Assembly (NCBI GenBank): GCA_025455865.1
Contig: JALOLS010000015.1
Span: forward strand, 1 to 37,233
Direction of reading: 5' to 3'
From: Thermoleophilia bacterium
GTDB lineage: Bacteria; Actinomycetota; Thermoleophilia; Miltoncostaeales; Miltoncostaeaceae
Length of the DNA stretch: 37,233 bases
A program made the position numbers and the translations under genes. The notes under the pieces were generated by a model that saw only the letters and a list, made by a program, of their open reading frames with translations, did not search any database and was not told where the DNA came from. Below, piece by piece: positions 26,946-34,011 of the stretch (position 1 is the first letter of the stretch; every line of letters begins with the position of its first letter).

Positions 26946-27890
26946 GTGTCCCGGCCGGTGCGCCTCCGCCGCTCCTGCCACGCCGTCCCCGGCGCGAGCG
27001 CGCGCATGGTCGAGAAGGCACGCGACATCCCGGCCGACCTGGTCTTCCTGGACCTGGAGGACTCCGTGGCGCCCGCGGCCAAGGCGGACGCGCGGGCCCT
27101 GGTGGCCGCCGCGCTCGGCGGCCCGCCCTTCCGCGCGGCGACGCTCGCGGTGCGGGTGAACCGGGTGGGCGGGCCCTGGTGCCACCGGGACCTGATCGAG
27201 GGCGTGGGCGCGGCGCCCGGGCGGGTGGACGTGGTGATCCTCCCCAAGGTCGCCTCGCCGGGCGAGGTGGCCTTCGCGGACCACCTCCTGGCCGGGATCG
27301 AGCAGGACGCCGGCATCGCCCCGGGCGCCATCGGGCTGGAGGTGCAGATCGAGGACCCCGCCGGCCTGGTGGCCGCGGAGGCGCTCGCCGCCTGCTGCCC
27401 CCGGCGCATGGAGGCGCTGGTGTTCGGGCCGGGCGACTTCGCGGCGGCGGCGGGCATGCCGACGACCTCGATCGGCGGGGAGGTCCCCGGCTACCCGGGC
27501 GACGCGCTCCACCACGCGCTCTCGCGGATCCTGGTCGCCGCCCGCGCGGCCGGCCTCCAGGCGGTCGACGGGCCCTTCGCCGGCATCCACGATCCCGACG
27601 GCCTGCGCGCCTCGGCCCGGCGCGCGCGGGCGCTGGGCTACGACGGCAAGTGGAGCGTCCACCCCGCACAGGTCCCCGTCCTGAACGAGGTGTTCGGCGT
27701 CGCACCGGAGGACCTGGAGCGGGCCCGGGCCGTCCTGGCCGCCGTCGGTGCGGCCGAGGAGCAGGGCCGCGGCGCCGCCGTCCACGCCGGCGAGATGATC
27801 GACGAGGCCACGCGGCGGATGGCCGCCCAGGTGGTCGAGCGCGCGCGCCTGGCCGGCTACCCCGAGCGTCCCACCGCGGCGGCGACGTAG
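26946..27890 (+). CDS. CitE-like CoA-ester lyase (HpcH/HpaI family)
   Basis: This 314-residue enzyme is of the CitE/malyl-CoA lyase group. Signs are RRSCHAVPGASARMVEKA at the N-terminus, VFLDLEDSVAP, VVILPKVASP, the metal-binding Glu in GLEVQIEDPAG, Asp in LVFGPGDFAAAAGM, and KWSVHPAQVPVLNEVF near the end. Such enzymes cleave or make malyl-CoA, citramalyl-CoA or related CoA esters with Mg2+; stand-alone CitE-like proteins without CitD/CitF are not citrate lyase subunits in the classical sense. The GTG start is set by the -10 element. The last 34 bases overlap the convergent cupredoxin gene. Confidence 0.88.
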   Translation: MSRPVRLRRSCHAVPGASARMVEKARDIPADLVFLDLEDSVAPAAKADARALVAAALGGPPFRAATLAVRVNRVGGPWCHRDLIEGVGAAPGRVDVVILPKVASPGEVAFADHLLAGIEQDAGIAPGAIGLEVQIEDPAGLVAAEALAACCPRRMEALVFGPGDFAAAAGMPTTSIGGEVPGYPGDALHHALSRILVAARAAGLQAVDGPFAGIHDPDGLRASARRARALGYDGKWSVHPAQVPVLNEVFGVAPEDLERARAVLAAVGAAEEQGRGAAVHAGEMIDEATRRMAAQVVERARLAGYPERPTAAAT

Positions 27891-29587
27891 CCCGCGACGG
27901 TGTCGATCTCGGCGTCGGTCAGGGTGCCCGCGAAGGAGGGCATCGGCGCCTCGCCGCGGATCATCTGGCGCCGGACCCTGTCCCGGTCCGGGCGCCGGTC
28001 GTCCAGGTCCGGGCCCACCGTGCCCGTGGTCCCGGCGTCGCGGAGCCGGTGGCAGCCGCCGCAGTTGGCGCGGAAGAGGCCCTGGCCGGTCACCGGGGCG
28101 GGGGGCGGCGGCGGGGCGGGGCCGGCGCCCACGGTCAGCGCCCCGGTCATCCCGGCCGCCTCGTGGCCGGCCACCGTGCACAGGAACGTGTAGACGCCGG
28201 GGGCGAGGTCGGCGGTGACCCCCGACGTGCCGCCGCCGCCCACCGTCGGCCCCTGGGCGATGATGCCCCCCGGGCCCCGCAGGGCGATGTTGTGCTCCAG
28301 CGGGCTCGCGTTGGCCAGGGTGATGGTCACGGGGCCGGCCGGGGCGGAGAGGGCGCCCGGGGTCAGCCCGAACATGCCGCTGGTCACGAGGGCGAGCGGG
28401 CCCCCGGGCGGCGCCGGTGCCGGGGGCACCTGCGGCGGGCCCGGGAGCCCGGTCCCGGGCGGTGGCACCGGATCGGGCCCGGCGGGCGGCACGGGGCCGG
28501 TGACCACGGTCAGGGTCAGGCGCATCCCGGCGCCCTCATGGCCGGCGACGGCGCAGAGGACGGTGTAGTCGCCCGGGGCGAGGTCGGCGCTGACCGAGGT
28601 GGTGCCGCCGCTCCCGACGACCGGGCCCTCGACGGCGACCCCGGGGCCGCGCAGGGCCACGTTGTGCTCGAGCGGGGTGGTGTTGGTGAGCCACACGGTG
28701 ACGCGCCCGGCCCGGACGGTCGCGTGGGCGCGGTCGAACGCGAGGAGCGACGCGGTGGTCAGGCGGACCTCACCGCCCGCCGGGGCGTCCGGGGCATCGG
28801 CCGGCCCGGCGGGGGCGGGCGCGTCCGGCCCCGCCGCGGGCTCCGGGCCCCGCGGGGCCGCGGCGCTCACCACCAGGCGGGCCTGCATCCCGGCGCCCTC
28901 GTGGCCGGGCACCGCGCACACCACCCGGTAGGTCCCGGGGGCCAGGCGGGCGGTGAGGGTGCTGGTCTGGCCCTGGCCGACCACCGGGCCGTCCACGTCC
29001 ACCCCGGGCCCGCGCAGGGCGACGTTGTGCTGGAGCGGCGTGGTGTTCTTCAGCCGCAGGGTCACCCGCCCCGCCCGCGCCCGGATCAGGGTCCGGTCGA
29101 ACCGGAGCATCTGCGCGGTGGAGAGGTCCACGACCGCCGCCGCGGCCCCCCGGGCCGGCCGTTCGGCGGCCACGCGCAGGCGCGCCACGACCGGCCCGTG
29201 CCGGCGCCCGTGCGCCAGGCACCGCACCTCGTAGCGGCCCGCGGCGAGGCGGGCGCCCATCCTCGCCCGCCGCCCGGGGGCCACGCGCACCGGCGCGCCC
29301 ACGGGGCCCCCGCCCACGCGCACGAGCACCAGGCGGTGCGCCATGCGACCCGCGTTCGCCACCACGACCGCGCCCCCCGCCGGCACCGGGCCGGTCCGCA
29401 CGCTCGACGACCACTCGCGCACCACCACCGTCGCCGGCGCGGGCGCGGAGTGCGCCCGGTGGACATGGCCGGCGGGCGCCGGCGGCCCGGTCGCCACCGC
29501 GAGCAGGCGGCCGGCGAGGCCGAGGGATGCGGCGGCCGCGAGCGCGACCAGGGCGGCCGCGAGGGCCGGGCGCACGTGTGAGGGCAC
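27857..29587 (-). CDS. Tandem cupredoxin / cytochrome c fusion protein
   Basis: This encodes 576 residues. GTG 29587 is preceded by GGAGG (29596-29592); GTG 29575 is an alternative. An N-terminal hydrophobic segment (about 7-33) is a signal peptide or anchor. Four cupredoxin-like units follow. The first (about 50-140) is decayed: H84 and C123 remain but the Met is gone. The next three are complete type 1 copper sites with the C-x4-H-x4-M pattern: H187/C224/H229/M234, H308/C345/H350/M355 and H432/C470/H475/M480. Pro-rich linkers separate them. A cytochrome c domain ends the protein: CGGCH at 509-513 and a likely Met ligand in EAPMPSF (M549). This predicts an exported electron-transfer protein with up to three coppers and one heme. 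Partner enzymes are not nearby. Confidence 0.9.
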   Translation of the reverse strand: MPSHVRPALAAALVALAAAASLGLAGRLLAVATGPPAPAGHVHRAHSAPAPATVVVREWSSSVRTGPVPAGGAVVVANAGRMAHRLVLVRVGGGPVGAPVRVAPGRRARMGARLAAGRYEVRCLAHGRRHGPVVARLRVAAERPARGAAAAVVDLSTAQMLRFDRTLIRARAGRVTLRLKNTTPLQHNVALRGPGVDVDGPVVGQGQTSTLTARLAPGTYRVVCAVPGHEGAGMQARLVVSAAAPRGPEPAAGPDAPAPAGPADAPDAPAGGEVRLTTASLLAFDRAHATVRAGRVTVWLTNTTPLEHNVALRGPGVAVEGPVVGSGGTTSVSADLAPGDYTVLCAVAGHEGAGMRLTLTVVTGPVPPAGPDPVPPPGTGLPGPPQVPPAPAPPGGPLALVTSGMFGLTPGALSAPAGPVTITLANASPLEHNIALRGPGGIIAQGPTVGGGGTSGVTADLAPGVYTFLCTVAGHEAAGMTGALTVGAGPAPPPPPAPVTGQGLFRANCGGCHRLRDAGTTGTVGPDLDDRRPDRDRVRRQMIRGEAPMPSFAGTLTDAEIDTVAGYVAAAVGRSG

Positions 29588-29681
29588 GGGACCTCCGGAT
29601 TGCGGGGCACGTGTCACCCCGGTCGGCCGTCCCCCCGGGCCCCTTGAGGACCGGCGCCGGCCGGTGCGGGCCGCGCCCGCG

Positions 29682-29696: not shown

Positions 29697-30356
29697 GTGA
29701 GCCACTCCAAGCCGAAGCGCTCGGCCCGGATGCGGGCCCGCGCCGTGGGCGGCCGCCGGCGCACCCGGCGCCTGGGGCTCGACCTGGGCGGCGTGCTCAT
29801 CCGGCCGTTCCTGCCGGGCACGGCCAAGCGGGTCGCCCGGCGCACCGGCCGCGACCGCGCCGAGGTGCGCGCGCTGCTCGGCCGCGACTTCCGGATGCCC
29901 TACTTCGCGGGCCGGCTGCCCGAGGATGCCATCTGGGACCGCCTGGAGATCGCGCCCAAGGCCGGACGGCGGCTGCTGCGCCTCGACCCGCTCCCGGCGA
30001 TGGGGCGCCTTCCGGAGTGGGCGGCGATGGCCGACATCTGGATCGTGTCCAACCACCGGCACGAGTGGGTGGACCCGGTGCTCGCGGCCGAGGGGGTCAC
30101 CGATCTCGCCGCCCGCATCCTCATCTCCAGCCGGACCGGCCTGGTCAAGCCCGACCACGCCGCCCTGGAGCCGCTCATCGCGGACGGCACCGACCCCGAG
30201 GACGTCCTGTTCGTCGACGACCAGGCCCGCAACGTGGAGGCGGCCCGGGACATGGGCATGCGCGCGGTGCTGGCCGACGACGACGGGGACTGGACGCTGG
30301 CCGTCGACGCCTGGCTCCTCGGCGAGGCCCACGAGGACCACGACGAGGAGGACTGA
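29697..30356 (+). CDS. HAD-superfamily hydrolase
   Basis: This encodes 219 residues. A basic N-terminus of about 22 residues (SKPKRSARMRARAVGGRRR) precedes the HAD core. Motif I is LGLDLGGVLI, with the nucleophile Asp but Gly in place of the usual second Asp; motif II is Ser in IVSNHR; motif III is Lys in GLVKPDHAAL; motif IV is FVDDQARNVEAA. This pattern is typical of the subfamily around epoxide-hydrolase N-terminal domains and YihX-like phosphatases, where the missing second Asp can reduce phosphatase activity. The substrate is unknown. It ends 7 bases from a convergent gene. Confidence 0.85.
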   Translation: MSHSKPKRSARMRARAVGGRRRTRRLGLDLGGVLIRPFLPGTAKRVARRTGRDRAEVRALLGRDFRMPYFAGRLPEDAIWDRLEIAPKAGRRLLRLDPLPAMGRLPEWAAMADIWIVSNHRHEWVDPVLAAEGVTDLAARILISSRTGLVKPDHAALEPLIADGTDPEDVLFVDDQARNVEAARDMGMRAVLADDDGDWTLAVDAWLLGEAHEDHDEED

Positions 30357-32416: not shown

Positions 32417-33178
32417 TCAGGCCAGCGCGGCCTCGGCGCCGTCCGCGGGCGCCATCGCCCGCTCGCGCTCGGCCTCGTGGGCGCGCACGACCTCCCACGG
32501 GATGGTGATCGAGCGGCCCTCCATCTCCACCGTGCCCTGGGCGCGGAGCTTCCCGAAGGCCGTGGTGACCGCCTCGCGCGAGGCGCCGATCAGGGATGCC
32601 CACTGGGCATGGGTCAGGTCCAGCTGCAGCCGCACGCCGGACGGCGTCGCGGTGCCGAAGCGCTCGGCGAGCTGGTGCAGGCGCGCGCGCAGCCGGTCCT
32701 CGACGCGCATCTCGCTCACCAGCGCGACGGTCTCGCGCAGCACGGCGATGCGGTCGGTCAGGAGCTGGGCCAGGTTGAGCCCGAAGCGCGGATAGCGGGC
32801 GATGAGGGTCTCGACCGCGTGACCCGGGAGGGGGGTGACCGCGGCGGTCTCCAGCGCGGCGGCCGTCGGCGGGGGCGCCTCGCCCAGCGTCGAGTAGACC
32901 GCGCCGGCGTCGAGGAGCGTGATCATGATCTCGTGGCCGGGGCCGGTGCGCTCGAACAGCGCCACGCGACCTTCGCGCACGATGTAGAGGTGGTTCGTCC
33001 GGGTCAGCGCCGCGGGGATCTCCGCGTCGCGGGGCCAGCGGACGACGGGCAGCCGCAGGTCCAGCATCGCGAGGTCGCGATCGGGCAGACCTGAGAACAG
33101 GTCCATCTGGGCGAGCGGGGGGCGCCATGCGGGTGAGGCGGGGCGCAGGGGCTGGACGGGGGTCGCGAGAGTGGCCAT
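32417..33178 (-). CDS. Crp/Fnr-family transcriptional regulator
   Basis: This 253-residue regulator has a cyclic-nucleotide-binding fold at about 25-140 (LFSGLPDRDLAML, NHLYIVREGRVALFERTGPGHEI, LLDAGAVYSTLGE) and a winged HTH at about 160-235 (VEDRLRARLHQLAERFG, LTHAQWASLIGASREAVTTAFGKLRAQGTV). The cNMP pocket motif is not canonical, so cAMP binding is uncertain. There is no cysteine, which rules out an Fnr-type iron-sulfur cluster. No ribosome binding site precedes ATG 33178. It diverges from the DtxR-family gene across 137 bases, so cross-regulation is possible. Confidence 0.92.
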   Translation of the reverse strand: MATLATPVQPLRPASPAWRPPLAQMDLFSGLPDRDLAMLDLRLPVVRWPRDAEIPAALTRTNHLYIVREGRVALFERTGPGHEIMITLLDAGAVYSTLGEAPPPTAAALETAAVTPLPGHAVETLIARYPRFGLNLAQLLTDRIAVLRETVALVSEMRVEDRLRARLHQLAERFGTATPSGVRLQLDLTHAQWASLIGASREAVTTAFGKLRAQGTVEMEGRSITIPWEVVRAHEAERERAMAPADGAEAALA

Positions 33179-33200
33179 GCGATGAGCGTCGCAGCCAGTT

Positions 33201-33229
33201 GTTATGGGGCCGTGATCGAGGGCGCAAAA
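33201..33229 (-). promoter_or_regulatory. Candidate sigma-70-type promoter of the Crp/Fnr gene
   Basis: On the minus strand, TTTTGC (33229-33224) and CATAAC (33206-33201) are 17 bases apart, as expected for -35 and -10 boxes. The start site would be about 16 bases before ATG 33178. The patch is locally AT-rich. Confidence 0.4.
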
Positions 33230-33303
33230 GTTCGGTGTTCCAGCAGACCCGCGCCGCTTGGCGCCCGGCGGCCGCTCCGTCCGGCCCGCGCGGGCGGCGC
33301 GAC

Positions 33304-33309
33304 TAGGAT
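33304..33309 (+). promoter_or_regulatory. -10 element TAGGAT, likely leaderless promoter of the DtxR-family gene
   Basis: TAGGAT is followed by six bases and GTG 33316, with no ribosome binding site. Confidence 0.55.
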
Positions 33310-33315
33310 CGCAGG

Positions 33316-34011
33316 GTGGCCGAGCACCCCGCCGAGCCCCGGCCCAGCCCGGCCGTCCAGGACTACCTCAAGGCGGTCTACGGCCTGGTCGAGCAGGACC
33401 CGGATGGCCCGGTGACGACCTCCCGGGTGGCCGAGGCCCTCGGCGTCACCCCGGCGTCGGCGTCGAACATGCTCAAGCGCCTGGGCCGGATGGGCTACGT
33501 GAGCCCGGTCGAGCGCGGGGTCGAGCTGACCGGCCGCGGCCGGCGGGCGGCGCTCGAGGTCGTGCGCCACCACCGCCTGCTCGAGACGTACCTCGCCACG
33601 GCGCTCGGGGTGCCCTGGGACCAGGTCCACGACGAGGCCGAGGTGCTCGAGCACCACATCTCCGAGGCCCTCGAGGCGCGGATCGCCGCCGCGCTCGGCC
33701 ATCCCGACCGCGACCCCCACGGGGACCCCATCCCGACCGCCGCAGGCCATGTGGCCCCGGTGAGCCCCGACCTCATGTGCGACCTGCCCGACGGGGCCCG
33801 CGCCGCGGTGGCCCGGGTGAGCGACCGGGACCCGGCGCTGCTGCGGTTCCTGGCCGAGCGCGGGATCGTCCCCGACGCGCTGGTCGAGGTGGTCGGCCGC
33901 GAGCCCTTCGGCGGGCCCATCGCGCTGCGCGTGGGGGGCCGGACGGTCCGGGTGCCCCCGGACGCCGCGCGGGCGGTCAACGTGCGCCCGGCCGCCCCCG
34001 CCGCCCCCTGA
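33316..34011 (+). CDS. DtxR/MntR-family metal-dependent repressor
   Basis: This 231-residue regulator has an N-terminal winged HTH (residues 12-75, TTSRVAEALGVTPASASNMLKRLGRMGYV), a dimerisation/metal domain (76-145) and an SH3-like C-terminal domain (about 155-225), the full DtxR/IdeR length. Metal ligands seen by alignment to DtxR are H86, E90, H105, E112 and H113. Two key positions differ from DtxR: Met10 is D16 and Cys102 is E109, as in manganese-sensing MntR. This suggests manganese or mixed specificity. When metal-bound, such proteins repress uptake genes. No transporter gene is adjacent. The gene diverges from a Crp/Fnr regulator. Confidence 0.92.
   Translation: MAEHPAEPRPSPAVQDYLKAVYGLVEQDPDGPVTTSRVAEALGVTPASASNMLKRLGRMGYVSPVERGVELTGRGRRAALEVVRHHRLLETYLATALGVPWDQVHDEAEVLEHHISEALEARIAAALGHPDRDPHGDPIPTAAGHVAPVSPDLMCDLPDGARAAVARVSDRDPALLRFLAERGIVPDALVEVVGREPFGGPIALRVGGRTVRVPPDAARAVNVRPAAPAAP

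Follow-up and report, generated by a model that had tools for sequence, protein, structure and literature searches.

The multi-cupredoxin gene and its surroundings

The window, the 37,233-nucleotide stretch of Thermoleophilia DNA analysed here (GC 77%), carries on its minus strand an open reading frame for a protein with four cupredoxin units, one of them degenerate, and a C-terminal cytochrome c domain. The features are listed below with the evidence for each.

26946..27890, plus strand: convergent neighbour of the HpcH/HpaI aldolase family, with no evident functional link (Pfam)
27857..29587, minus strand: whole open reading frame, 576 amino acids, GTG start; multi-cupredoxin cytochrome c protein, single-gene unit (ORF reading and Pfam)
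27866..28093, minus strand: class I c-type cytochrome domain, residues 499-574, C509-G-G-C512-H513 with M549 (in APMPSF) as likely axial ligand (Pfam, NCBIfam, structure match)
28121..28396, minus strand: type 1 copper unit 3, residues 398-489, H432, C470, H475, M480 (Pfam, unit HMM, alignment, AlphaFold2)
28499..28774, minus strand: type 1 copper unit 2, residues 272-363, H308, C345, H350, M355 (same evidence as unit 3)
28859..29149, minus strand: type 1 copper unit 1, residues 147-243, H187, C224, H229, M234 (same evidence as unit 3)
29168..29440, minus strand: decayed cupredoxin unit 0, residues 50-140, H84 and C123 kept, C-x4-H-x4-M lost (alignment, unit HMM, models)
29450..29467, minus strand: His-rich linker H41-V-H43-R-A-H46 (sequence reading)
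29513..29566, minus strand: N-terminal hydrophobic helix, residues 8-25, signal peptide or membrane anchor (helix in model)
29592..29596, minus strand: Shine-Dalgarno-like GGAGG, 4 nt before the GTG (read directly)
29697..30356, plus strand: divergent neighbour, HAD-like hydrolase, with no evident functional link (Pfam)

The gene lies where the first-pass annotation had placed it, and its GC contents of 0.81/0.64/0.98 at the three codon positions form the pattern of a real gene. Its end overlaps that of the aldolase gene by 34 nt. It stands alone between the aldolase and hydrolase genes, with no operon partner, and neither the genes around it in the window nor those flanking the paralogues described below offer a functional clue. 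No match was found among plasmid records. The N-terminal hydrophobic stretch contains no lipobox Cys; where the His-rich linker follows it, the paralogue on contig C136 reads HHGHAAH. At 32417-34011, 3-4 kb away, lie two regulators identified by eye, one Crp/Fnr-like and the other a DtxR-like metal regulator, with no link shown to the array gene.

Three complete type 1 copper units and a heme domain

Units 1-3 each contain the His-Cys-His-Met ligand set within a predicted cupredoxin sandwich of the plastocyanin/azurin family. The first-pass annotation had claimed three copies with all four ligands and near-identical spacing, followed by a CGGCH heme site with a downstream Met, and both claims hold: His-to-Cys distances are 37, 37, and 38 residues, every loop reads C-x4-H-x4-M, and C509, C512, H513, and M549 are all in place. 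The pattern H-x36/37-C-x4-H-x4-M occurs three times in the real protein but averages 0.0002 occurrences per sequence across 20,000 shuffled versions of it, so the repeated motif is not a product of chance. PF00127 (Copper-bind) matches three stretches (7.5e-21) and PF13442 matches the heme domain (1.7e-11), each above its curated Pfam cut-off, which yields the architecture of multiple cupredoxins plus one cytochrome c in a single protein that had been proposed for checking.

Structure prediction, likewise proposed as a check, gave the cupredoxin sandwich fold for all four units. The full-length AlphaFold2 model has a mean pLDDT of 78.2 and a pTM of 0.33; the four beta-sandwiches lie mostly at pLDDT ~84-96 and the longer linkers below 50. 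In the predicted topology of every intact unit, the Cys ends one strand and the His and Met sit in the loop preceding the last strand. Linkers of ~30-35 residues, rich in Pro and Ala, join the three copper domains, and a 12-residue Pro-rich linker joins the heme domain to the array. The low-confidence linkers and the pTM of 0.33 point to the absence of a fixed domain arrangement, so the domains would form a flexible string. The best Foldseek matches are multi-cupredoxin proteins, namely three-domain NirK and multicopper oxidases, at TM-scores of 0.14-0.25 and rmsd >12 Å; judged from the models, these share the kind of domain and not the arrangement.

Helices are predicted in the heme domain at residues 501-508, 525-531, 535-544, and 558-573 (moderate confidence in AlphaFold2). 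Its closest solved relative is the SorU cytochrome subunit of a sulfite dehydrogenase (PDB 4pw9), yet the match to the SorU family (NF052248) reaches 69.4 of the 100 bits required. The molybdenum sulfite dehydrogenase family PF00174 is absent from the bacterium's own genome, leaving no SorT-type partner, and assignment as a SorU subunit was rejected. Elsewhere in this genome (L054:1871-3265, contig C38), a SorU-like cytochrome c domain is fused to a Cys-rich domain of ~350 residues.

Unit 0 had been described as a fourth unit that keeps His and Cys and has lost Met. This description is correct: H84 and C123 are the only members of the type 1 ligand set present, and the normal C-x4-H spacing is also missing, with H126 at C-x2 and H130 at C-x6. 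The unit matches the unit HMM weakly (4e-4) and is a beta-sandwich of good to high confidence in the full-length model; modelled alone with one relative, it resembles amicyanin, CuA domains, and the EfeO cupredoxin. Because its counterpart in the C136 paralogue has a complete set (H84/C135/H140/M145, numbered on a 486-aa reading), the copper site of unit 0 has probably been lost in the window gene.

Could the chain itself be an enzyme? The first-pass annotation saw no oxidase or reductase domain, and we find no such active site in the 576 residues: ligands for type 2/3 copper and for CuA are missing, so the protein is neither an oxidase nor a nitrite reductase. A multicopper oxidase needs four HxH-type motifs, and the single HxH here lies in a linker. 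TIGR02376 (NirK) gives no match at E<=1, and the units have no spare conserved His for a type 2 site. The C-x3-C loop of a CuA oxidase subunit II is absent, the six Cys being four single residues plus the heme CxxC. Identity as a copper-resistance cupredoxin of the CopI or EfeO type was also rejected, with scores of 20.6 of 280 and 72.7 of 270 bits, far under the NCBIfam cut-offs.

Paralogues and the age of the array

Three paralogous arrays, counting that of the window, are present in this genome. The C136 paralogue (C136:13115-14572, ~485 aa) shares the architecture of the window protein, combining a unit 0 that has kept its site with two further copper units and the cytochrome. The C106 paralogue has four units and no cytochrome in the part recovered, its contig beginning inside the gene; two of its units have C-x4-H-x4-M loops, one an amicyanin-like C-x2-H-x2-M, and one a plastocyanin-like C-x2-H-x4-M. 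The heme domain is thus present in two of the three. A small single-cupredoxin gene adjoins the C106 array gene.

The first-pass annotation took the similarity of the units for recent internal duplication, and this claim fails. Units 1 and 2 of the window protein are 62% identical, units 2 and 3 54%, and units 1 and 3 49%, and synonymous sites between them are near saturation (dS 0.52-0.62, with 63-69% of codons identical at conserved residues and GC3 of 0.99-1.0). Unit 1 is as close to unit 1 of a paralogue (66%) as to its own neighbour, unit 2, and unit 3 is 59% identical to that paralogue's unit 2. With units as alike between paralogues as within one protein, and dS near saturation, the array probably predates the divergence of the paralogues. 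The unit tree pairs units 1 and 2 (support 89/90), and their duplication alone may be specific to the window gene. A collapsed-repeat assembly artefact is unlikely, as 38-51% of residues differ between units. Most units with C-x4-H-x4-M loops are 43-70% identical to one another, and the full ligand set is kept in the three window units and in the units of the two paralogues. Retention of the ligands in three of four units despite near-saturated synonymous divergence implies selection on all three.

Distribution and comparison with known proteins

Genomes were sampled as 61 relatives, 399 drawn from the class, and 396 in a broader draw from the phylum. A few candidate ORFs were scored per genome and the scans were class-centred, so that rarity holds for the class and not for all life. 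Among ORFs fetched and scanned from the 61 related and 399 class genomes, arrays of at least three units occur outside the own genome only in G326 (L131) and G260 (L132). Searching the 103 genomes of that family with one of these arrays as query revealed no further array-bearing genome, and the broader phylum draw added none. Like the window protein, L131 and L132 have four cupredoxin units with a degenerate N-terminal one and Pro/Ala- or Gly/Thr-rich linkers; unlike it, they have no cytochrome, and most of their units fall outside its unit group in the tree.

Single cytochrome c-cupredoxin fusions are common in the class. Six examples of ~250 aa (L110, L113, L117, L120, L124, and L138) likewise combine a class I cytochrome with an intact type 1 cupredoxin in an exported protein without a catalytic domain, but they have one copper unit instead of three, place the heme first, and usually carry a lipobox-like Cys. 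The recurrence of these fusions indicates that pairing the two carriers is an established habit in the class. In another family of the class, a Cys-less cupredoxin-like domain is fused to the same type of cytochrome (L098:1336-1959, L135:3863-4732, and L136:3677-4351). Three other class genomes have this cytochrome c type at the C-terminus of what appear by eye to be PQQ-type beta-propeller proteins (L139:4193-6214, L140:2242-4593, and L142:2905-5157).

Some multi-domain halocyanins (TIGR03102) carry a duplicated blue copper domain. These are archaeal and contain no cytochrome, and the window protein scores 21.3 of 93.8 bits against their model, far under the cut-off. Multicopper oxidases and six-domain multicopper blue proteins also place several cupredoxin domains in one chain (PMC3600357), but they require the HxH motifs of the trinuclear site. 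In class III NirK proteins such as those of Hyphomicrobium, Ralstonia, and Thermus, which include the best Foldseek matches, redox partners are tethered to the enzyme, a cupredoxin or cytochrome c being fused to its cupredoxin domains (PMC6400189, PMC9358711). Those enzymes hold a catalytic type 2 copper in a fixed oligomer, whereas the window protein lacks the ligands for such a site and its domains have no fixed arrangement. An open-literature search for tandem cupredoxin-cytochrome proteins found no paper, returning multicopper oxidases and three-domain NirK. The parts are known; their combination is not met in any other genome or paper searched, a set made up mainly of class genomes in which archaea and other phyla are hardly sampled.

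A probable tethered string of electron carriers

What would such a chain do? The first-pass annotation had suggested a multi-centre electron wire or a copper buffer, and both ideas are plausible. Given a class I heme beside complete type 1 sites and no catalytic centre, electron transfer in the envelope is the most economical reading. We hold it reasonably likely that the protein is a multi-centre electron carrier, exported and probably tethered to the membrane, with its domains strung like beads. That it is exported, binds copper and heme, and has a redox function is inferred, as are its partners and the direction in which electrons flow. Three mononuclear type 1 copper domains on linkers, with the c-heme at the end, would make up a tethered string of carriers. 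Electrons would enter at one end, hop between domains through intra- and intermolecular collisions, and leave to an envelope acceptor, most likely the cell's own aa3 or ba3 heme-copper oxidase or its NirK-like protein. Why repeat the copper domain? Repetition would provide a tethered pool of carriers with a long reach through a thick cell wall.

The genome encodes an aa3-type oxidase operon and a ba3-type oxidase whose CuA subunit is short (types assigned by sequence reading), cytochrome c assembly proteins, a laccase-type multicopper oxidase, and, on contig C160, a NirK-like protein scoring 194 bits against a cut-off of 296. It also contains three giant ORFs of 1550-1970 aa (L164:1-5910 on C69, L163:3041-8350 on C183, and L169:3766-8418 on C59) that contain MnxG-like multicopper-oxidase segments together with several HxH/HCH motifs and may oxidise Mn(II) or another metal. 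MnxG-like matches occur in five and arrays in three of the 399 class genomes, and both occur in two, the own genome and G260. The probability of this overlap by chance is ~4e-4 if the own genome, which suggested the idea, is counted and 0.02 if it is left out; the association, with one independent genome, is a lead only.

Some observations count against a chain of carriers. The array gene has no operon partner. The four units of the C106 paralogue, with no heme in the part recovered, suggest that heme is not essential to this type of array, and units on flexible linkers might each work separately instead of forming a chain. Alternatively, the units could form a copper buffer or store that mainly holds envelope copper for the oxidases or keeps it from doing harm, with the heme incidental or serving as a Cu(II) reductant. 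Several copper sites per chain, a unit number that differs between paralogues, the His-rich linker after the anchor in both the window protein and the C136 paralogue, and a weak partial likeness to CopI and EfeO cupredoxins all fit a store. However, those likenesses are the same sub-threshold matches given above, no copper-homeostasis genes were recognised near this array gene or its paralogues in the stretches read, and two of three paralogues retain the heme domain. Moreover, type 1 sites with Met suit electron transfer, and such domains bind little copper per residue. The fused heme and complete type 1 loops favour electron transfer, and we consider a copper store unlikely.

Electron transfer could instead be dedicated, the array being a tethered donor to one enzyme, such as the NirK-like protein or a giant MnxG-like oxidase, and not a general respiratory carrier. 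Multicopper oxidases, though, normally hand electrons to O2 themselves, and no candidate enzyme lies beside an array gene in the stretches read. Both kinds of copper enzyme are encoded in the genome, NirK naturally receives electrons from azurin and cytochromes c (PMC9358711), and array and MnxG-like genomes overlap as described; yet G326 (69% complete) has an array and no MnxG-like match, while G034, G180, and G198 have the MnxG-like protein and no array match. We judge a dedicated donor quite improbable. It is also conceivable that only one or two units transfer electrons and the rest are spacers in a drifting array that loses its copper sites singly. Loss of the unit 0 site here, with retention in C136, and the Cys-less domains of the cytochrome fusions noted above are what drift would produce, but three of four units keep every ligand at near-saturated synonymous divergence, and drift of this kind seems very unlikely.

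Wider significance

Type 1 copper domains are usually single mobile carriers or parts of catalytic oxidases and reductases. A non-catalytic chain of several coppers and a c-heme would be a model for the effect of tethering and repetition on electron transfer, a genetically simple multi-copper relay comparable with multiheme wires. The three paralogues of one genome, with differing numbers of intact units and an N-terminal site that is intact in one and lost in another, would form a series for per-site effects. Taken much further, and as a speculation to which we give very little credence, the arrays could be copper-based conductive filaments in the cell wall, their tethered blue-copper sites and terminal heme carrying electrons across the thick envelope. 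They would connect reactions outside the cell, for instance the oxidation of Mn or Fe by giant MnxG-like oxidases, to the respiratory chain. If true, they would be the copper counterpart of multiheme cytochrome wires. At another locus of the same genome (L010:6029-8808, contig C141), two radical-SAM genes, NirJ/AhbD-like (heme-modifying) by eye, lie beside a small single-cupredoxin gene.
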